Assembly (NCBI RefSeq): GCF_000015105.1 | Contig: NC_008610.1 | Span: 496,001-560,000 of the forward strand | Source of the DNA: Candidatus Ruthia magnifica str. Cm (Calyptogena magnifica) | GTDB taxonomy: Bacteria; Pseudomonadota; Gammaproteobacteria; PS1; Pseudothioglobaceae | Direction of reading: 5' to 3' | Length of the DNA stretch: 64,000 nt | Shown here: piece by piece, positions 57,775-58,894 of the stretch | Layout of the letters: each line of letters starts with the position of its first letter | How positions within the stretch are numbered: the stretch's first letter is position 1 | Notes under the pieces: model-generated | What the model saw: the letters and a program-made list of their open reading frames with translations, nothing else | Database searches by the model: none | What the model was told of the DNA's origin: nothing | Made by a program: the position numbers and the translations under genes

Positions 57775-58130
57775 ATACTCAAAGGTTATACTTTGATATC
57801 TTAGTTAATAGGCTTTACAATAAAGAACCTAGTTTTAGATTGATAATCTCCTAACAGCACTTGTTAGATATTAATATGTATACTTTCTTATCTTTTTTGA
57901 TATATCTATAAATCCTGAGTAAGCCGTATTTGAAAGAAATACTATTTTTTTGATGTTAAGTGGATAAATCATTTTTGTTAAACTTATTTAAAATACTTTT
58001 GGATGTATGAGGTACCTGTAAACCATGTTGTTTACTAATCCTAATCATGTACCAGTAGAACAACCTTGAGTTGCCAAAACTTTATGTTGATTATCGATAT
58101 TTAGATGATCCTCACCTTTTTAAATTTAAA
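57775..58130. other. Intergenic with unidentified minus-strand coding-like remnant
   Basis: There is no intact gene. A minus-strand frame from about 58047 reads ISKQHGLQVPHTSKSILNKF and, past one stop, SISFKYGLLRIYRYIKKDKK to about 57825. The length and composition suggest a decayed gene, but I recognise no family. Confidence 0.3.
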
Positions 58131-58137
58131 GCTTAAT

Positions 58138-58165
58138 TTGCATAAATATATTATTATGTTATAAT
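58138..58165 (+). promoter_or_regulatory. Promoter of the sulfur-globule-like gene
   Basis: TTGCAT (58138-58143) and a perfect TATAAT (58160-58165) are spaced by 16 bases, 32 bases before the start codon. It is among the best sigma-70-type promoters visible in the window, consistent with high expression. Confidence 0.65.
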
Positions 58166-58197
58166 ATAAATTGAATTAATTAAATGGAGATATGACA

Positions 58198-58566
58198 ATG
58201 AAAAAGATTTTTACAATAGTGCTATTGACATCCACTTTAAGTGCGAATGCATTTTGGAGTAGCAACAATACCCCATGGGGTAATGGTTACAACAATTATA
58301 ACGCTTATGGCTATCAAGAAGATAATGGCATATTTGGCTACAACCCATATGATTTTTGGGATCCTCGTTGGTATGCAGAAGAAATGGGTAATATGTTTGA
58401 TGAATTTGATAATAACGGTTGGAACAACAACAACTATTATGGTTATGGTCGTAATGGTTATGGTCGTAATGGTTATGGTTTCGCACCTAATGGTTATGTA
58501 AATACCCCATGGGGACCTGGTGTTGCACCTGAAATGACTATGCCAGTAGTACCAATAGCAAGATAG
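58198..58566 (+). CDS. Sulfur-globule-protein-like exported protein
   Basis: The 122-residue protein has a clear signal peptide (MKKIFTIVLLTSTLSANA), then a Gly/Asn/Tyr/Trp-rich body with NTPWGNGYNNYN, FGYNPYDFWDPRWYAEEMGN, and tandem YGYGRNGYGRNGYG, ending in a Pro/Val-rich tail. The WDPRW-x-x-E-M-x-NM and Gly-Tyr repeats match the sulfur globule family that coats periplasmic sulfur in purple and thiotrophic bacteria. GGAG nine bases before 58198 supports this ATG over 58192. A structural, Tyr-rich envelope protein of other type cannot be excluded. Confidence 0.7.
   Translation: MKKIFTIVLLTSTLSANAFWSSNNTPWGNGYNNYNAYGYQEDNGIFGYNPYDFWDPRWYAEEMGNMFDEFDNNGWNNNNYYGYGRNGYGRNGYGFAPNGYVNTPWGPGVAPEMTMPVVPIAR
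58441..58477 (+). repeat. 15-bp tandem repeat in the sulfur-globule-like gene
   Basis: GGTTATGGTCGTAAT occurs twice in tandem (58441-58455, 58456-58470) plus seven more bases, encoding the GYGRN units. Such near-identical copies can change number by slippage. Confidence 0.7.
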
Positions 58567-58640
58567 TATAAAAGTTATGGTTAAAATCAGGCATTAGGTT
58601 TTTAATGACGATTGATTAATAATTAAGGAGTGAGAAAATA

Positions 58641-58832
58641 ATGACAGTTTTCTTGCTAACATTGAAACTTAATGCTACTGCAAATTGGGGTATTAATTGG
58701 AATAGTAATATTCCTATAAATTTTGGAAACAACACACCCTGGAACGGCAATAGTTTTAACAATCCCGTTGAAGTAATGAATAACAAACCTTTGGAATTAT
58801 GTCTACAACCAAGAAATTACAGTAATCGTTGA
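58641..58832 (+). pseudogene. Degraded paralogue of the sulfur-globule-like gene
   Basis: AAGGAG (58625-58630) precedes an ATG whose 63 codons read MTVFLLTLKLNATANWGINWN then NFGNNTPWNGNSFNN. This parallels the upstream protein (LLTSTLSANAFW...NTPWGNGYNN) but lacks the basic start of the signal peptide and the repeat region. After about 58797 another frame looks more natural (NLWNYVYNQEITVIVE), suggesting a frameshift. It may still be translated. Confidence 0.5.
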
Positions 58833-58871
58833 AACAGAAAGTGACGAGCCTTTCAGCATCAATTTCATAGT

Positions 58872-58894
58872 AAAACTGGCTATACCGGTTTTTT
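58872..58894 (+). terminator. Rho-independent terminator after the sulfur-globule region
   Basis: AAAACTGG and CCGGTTTT pair (one G-T) around CTATA, followed by more T. It ends the transcript of the sulfur-globule-like pair before the HIT gene. Confidence 0.7.

Follow-up and report, generated by a model that had tools for sequence, protein, structure and literature searches.

A sulfur-globule-protein-like gene in a clam symbiont, the decayed array around it and its relatives on predicted phage contigs

Candidatus Thioglobus autotrophicus EF1 is reported to carry four genes for putative sulfur globule proteins (sgp), to form periplasmic globules visible by cryo-tomography and to have Sgp proteins in its proteome (PMC6509183). 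In Allochromatium vinosum, regularly spaced prolines are common to all of SgpA-D (PMC10386293). Sulfur genes are also found in viruses: SUP05-type phages carry dsrA, dsrC and soxYZ as auxiliary metabolic genes (Kieft et al. PMC8190135, Roux et al. PMC4164917).

The DNA analysed here (the window, 64,000 nucleotides) covers positions 496001-560000 of contig C1 of genome G000, which is a single contig of 1,160,782 bp. The nearest relatives of this genome are the clam symbionts Ca. Ruthia and Vesicomyosocius. Genome searches place dsrA and soxB above cut-off, so the dsr and Sox genes that the preliminary description proposed to look for elsewhere in the genome are present; soxC has no match in the same searches. 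The combination of rDsr with Sox lacking SoxCD, used here as one mark of a globule-forming organism, is what G000 contains (dsrA+, soxB+, soxC-), with SoxCD judged on soxC alone. In a cell with soxB and rDsr but no soxC, stored sulfur would be expected to remain. The features of the locus are as follows.

58022..58122 (about), + strand: 3'-end relic of paralogue A, from alignment to A, which is intact in G038 and G039
58137..58165, + strand: promoter-like site TTTGCA-17-TATAAT with extended TG (extended -10), a pattern match conserved in G039
58198..58566, + strand: type B sulfur-globule-protein-like gene (ORF1), 122 aa, with putative Sec leader, core DNGIFGYNPYDFWDPRWYAEEMGNMFDEFD and Gly/Asn/Tyr-rich tail
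58632..58850, + strand: pseudogene of paralogue D (ORF2), with start lost, internal deletion and frameshift; remnant ORF 58641-58832, 63 aa
58872..58892, + strand: intrinsic terminator 3' of B and the D relic, a pattern match conserved in G039

The open frame of ORF1 was first listed as 58192-58566 (124 aa). The start at 58198 is the likely one because GGAG lies at 58186-58189 and relatives align from there (MKK...). By inspection, the protein has a putative Sec-type leader, as expected of sulfur globule proteins; it ends ANA|F (MKKIFTIVLLTSTLSANA|FW) and is kept in relatives. The core follows the pattern WDPRWYxEEMxNMxDEFD and is predicted, with low confidence, to be a helix. The tail is rich in Gly, Asn and Tyr and contains the repeat NGYGR; Gly, Asn, Tyr, Trp and Pro account for 52% of the open frame, in keeping with the small, repetitive Gly/Asn/Tyr-rich proteins sought. 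The preliminary description had recognised a secreted Gly/Tyr/Asn-rich gene followed by a decaying second gene, and both the leader and tail of ORF1 and the broken state of ORF2 bear this out. The profile search that it suggested, with sulfur globule protein families, gave nothing: no Pfam or NCBIfam model matches ORF1. Searches of PHROG models and the PDB found no relative either, and the AlphaFold model of the protein (pLDDT 51) is too weak for a fold search. Evenly spaced prolines are not evident in the type B protein by inspection. Proline spacing is not used here to decide membership, since it is a feature noted in A. vinosum SgpA-D and not a known hallmark of the SUP05 proteins.

Relatives carry up to four tandem paralogue types, A, B, C and D. 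Type A has the motif DWPxWTPMYWME, type B is ORF1, type C has FTPDWFSEEMDDMMDEFD, and type D has NSPMNFGNNTPW...PWNYGYNQ. In G061, taken as Ca. Thioglobus autotrophicus EF1, all four stand in tandem (A-B-C-D) between metH and a HIT gene. The clam symbionts differ in what is left. Type B is intact in 12/12 genus genomes. Intact copies of type A remain in G038 and G039, whereas those in G034, G035, G036, G040, G041 and G043 are broken or fragmentary. Type C was not found in any clam symbiont examined (genus genomes, n=12). Type D survives whole in G038, G039, G043 and G044; in G000 and G041 the gene is broken, and it was not found in the remaining 6 genus genomes.

Both flanks of ORF1 in the window hold remains of this array. 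The A relic lies upstream of the promoter-like site; its local alignment scores 139, whereas shuffled sequences reach at most 67.5, and the similarity is mainly in 58022-58122. Only one of the two relics, that of D, had been noticed before. It had been described as a truncated second copy of ORF1, a reading that is ruled out because the proteins related to it, found at the same position, are of type D and full length; ORF2 is the relic of a distinct paralogue. It is 77% identical over 44 aa (E 8e-16) to the intact 138-aa protein of G039. Compared with G039, the start codon has gone in an 11-bp deletion, there is a large internal loss, and the frame is shifted. ORF2 still has 63 aa of open frame and what is left of a leader, as a small functional gene might, but with its start codon lost, a lysine within the hydrophobic stretch of the leader, the internal loss and frameshift, and the gene absent from other genus members, such a function is barely credible. 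Judged from these sequences, the array has been reduced towards B in clam symbionts, and G000 has kept B alone at the locus. The earlier suggestion that the coat is being simplified holds for this locus only, because two intact type E copies (see below) persist elsewhere in G000.

Promoter and terminator had both been proposed. The promoter pattern is no more frequent than chance (8 found, 7.6 expected). Positions 58134-58191 are almost base-for-base identical in the relative G039, and this conservation is better evidence for a putative promoter than the pattern. The terminator stands (2 patterns found, 0.5 expected), but it lies 3' of ORF2. ORF1 and ORF2 were probably once one transcription unit, because the terminator sits after ORF2.

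A type B match is present in 49/83 family genomes. The dN/dS of ORF1 is 0.18 overall, 0.03 in the core and 0.29 in the tail; the core is under strong purifying selection. In 47 of 49 good Thioglobaceae genomes, B and dsrA are either both present (35) or both absent (12), and the other 2 have dsrA only; inside the Thioglobaceae this agreement rests on few independent events. Among 370 Gammaproteobacteria, 18 match the B profile and 16 of those 18 have dsrA (p = 1e-6); when the Thioglobaceae are left out, the association has p = 1.3e-4. The distant matches carry the core as NPYDPWDPRYWMEEM or DWPxFTPMYWMEEM. B also has an orthologue in G061, taken as EF1, whose periplasmic globules are documented.

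ORF1 very probably codes for a small exported protein that coats periplasmic sulfur globules; at this locus in G000 no other member of the array is still intact. Its leader and conserved core point to this role, together with a tail of low complexity, purifying selection and presence in 12/12 genus genomes, as do the tracking of dsrA, the absence of soxC and the decay of A and D on either side. The earlier identification of a sulfur-globule-like protein with a signal peptide is supported by the leader, core, tail and link to dsrA. B matches no curated family, its tail is of low complexity, and its sulfur role is read from sequence; it might therefore be a Gly/Asn/Tyr-rich protein of the envelope or extracellular matrix with a general role, one that has nothing to do with sulfur and is like the sulfur globule proteins in composition only. 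This is unlikely: the similarity sits in a specific 30-residue core, not in composition, and the presence of B follows dsrA. Sox without SoxCD would leave sulfane sulfur, stored as S0 in the periplasm. Exported B protein would bind or surround this S0, with the core WDPRWYxEEMxNMxDEFD serving as the unit of assembly and the Gly/Asn/Tyr tail forming the coat matrix; rDsr would later oxidise the stored sulfur. In the clam symbionts, the ancestral A-B-C-D array would have shrunk.

Type E is a separate family of secreted proteins resembling sulfur globule proteins, 174 aa long and with WGPF repeats. It is conserved in most dsrA-bearing Thioglobaceae. Its tie to sulfur globules is by association only. 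Two intact copies, 89% identical to each other, lie outside the window on G000:C1 (L068, L229):

462345-462866: type E copy, intact
1157103-1157624: type E copy, intact

Phage relatives of type E are about 60% identical, and some are near tusA, dsrA or dsrC. One phage type holds B, E, dsrC and tusA together.

Genes of type B are also found on viral contigs. When IMG/VR was scanned with the B alignment, 32 loci were found; a scan with a mainly viral alignment gave 51 contigs that hold 30 distinct proteins, of which one is frame-disrupted. The scan patterns were drawn from the core, so that coreless forms would be missed. The viral contigs with B-type genes are L107-L189. Plasmid and INPHARED phage collections contained no match to the queries tried. 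In a tree rooted on distant relatives, the viral B-type proteins group together as a single clade (support 94/90) next to proteins of Thioglobaceae, within an unresolved Thioglobaceae part. They are shorter than the bacterial proteins (median 96 vs 114 aa), with shorter tails that are poorer in Gly, Asn, Tyr, Pro, Trp and Gln. Their dN/dS is 0.16-0.20 for most close pairs and 0.47 for one, which indicates purifying selection. On representative contigs, the neighbouring phage genes encode T7-like RNA polymerase, DNA polymerase and primase-helicase, topoisomerase II subunits, a phage exonuclease and PhoH. A host-related gene together with phage hallmarks, the latter checked on representative contigs, makes viral B a candidate auxiliary metabolic gene. 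IMG/VR contigs are computational predictions, many of them short, and their phage nature was checked on representatives only, so the viral genes could in principle be misfiled fragments of bacterial genomes that say nothing about phages. This is highly improbable, as phage hallmark genes (T7-like RNA polymerase, DNA polymerase, primase-helicase and others) share contigs with viral B, and the viral proteins form a clade apart from the host ones (94/90) and differ from them in their shorter length and their tail, while also being under selection.

Phage-borne B genes often have sulfur genes as neighbours. For 11/30 distinct viral B proteins, tusA, dsrC or dsrA lies within 8 kb (confirmed with Pfam on examples). 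The gene order in L107 and L110 is SGP-tusA-dsrC; in L129 a double-core protein is followed by two dsrA-like genes. A phage TusA query found 17 contigs, 14/17 with a B- or E-type gene, or about 9/12 after apparent duplicates were merged. A dsrA query found 12 phage contigs, of which only two, apparently one virus, carry B. Viral B is therefore linked to tusA and dsrC rather than to every sulfur phage. That phages carry B beside tusA, dsrC and dsrA argues further against a matrix protein unrelated to sulfur. The viral clade, with its core and reduced tail and often beside one of these genes, supports the place of the family in the sulfur-oxidation gene set. The gene neighbourhoods of these viruses suggest sulfur bacteria related to the clam symbiont. 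A tentative possibility is that coat proteins with reduced tails from SUP05-type phages, with TusA, DsrC and sometimes DsrA, enter or loosen the globule coat of the host, so that stored sulfur is drawn on as fuel for infection. The presence and neighbourhood of the phage genes are computed, and from them we hypothesise this remodelling of the host sulfur store.

Several other features were seen. A bacterial paralogue in G004 (L016:1024-1365, - strand) has a C-terminal YEFPID which resembles the NFPV ending of phage proteins, a possible host-phage link. A secreted protein of about 290 aa, porin-like by eye, is often found on B-carrying phage contigs (L110:4414-5343, L124:1746-2594, L146:6971-7843, L169:9670-10578). 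Runs of NifU/IscU-like, ferredoxin and IscA-like phage genes, recognised by eye, lie directly 3' of tusA (L201:4215-5467, L202:4215-5844).

The conserved core and the four-type array provide a way to recognise sulfur globule proteins across the Thioglobaceae, and the decay of the array shows which member, B, survives genome reduction. Judging by the phage findings, the genes that viruses carry include some of the sulfur storage compartment itself and not only those for oxidation enzymes; viral control of stored sulfur is therefore a testable question.

EF1 has an orthologous B gene at the same locus (with G061 taken as EF1). It differs in having A-B-C-D, whereas the window has B and relics of A and D. 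The array of EF1 equals its four published sgp genes in number, a match by count only. SgpA, SgpB and SgpC of A. vinosum, compared by description, are likewise small, secreted and repetitive and come from a periplasmic sulfur storer with rDsr (PMC10386293); the regular proline spacing of its Sgp proteins is not evident in the B protein of the window. Among SUP05 phages, those with tusA, dsrC or dsrA have genes of type B or E close by. A globule-type protein is not listed as an auxiliary gene in the searched text of PMC8190135 or PMC4164917, and no report of phage globule proteins was found in the main text (without supplements) of openly licensed papers. The gene in the window very probably encodes a further member of a known sort of protein, as the preliminary description largely had it, and the phage versions are a variant of that sort.
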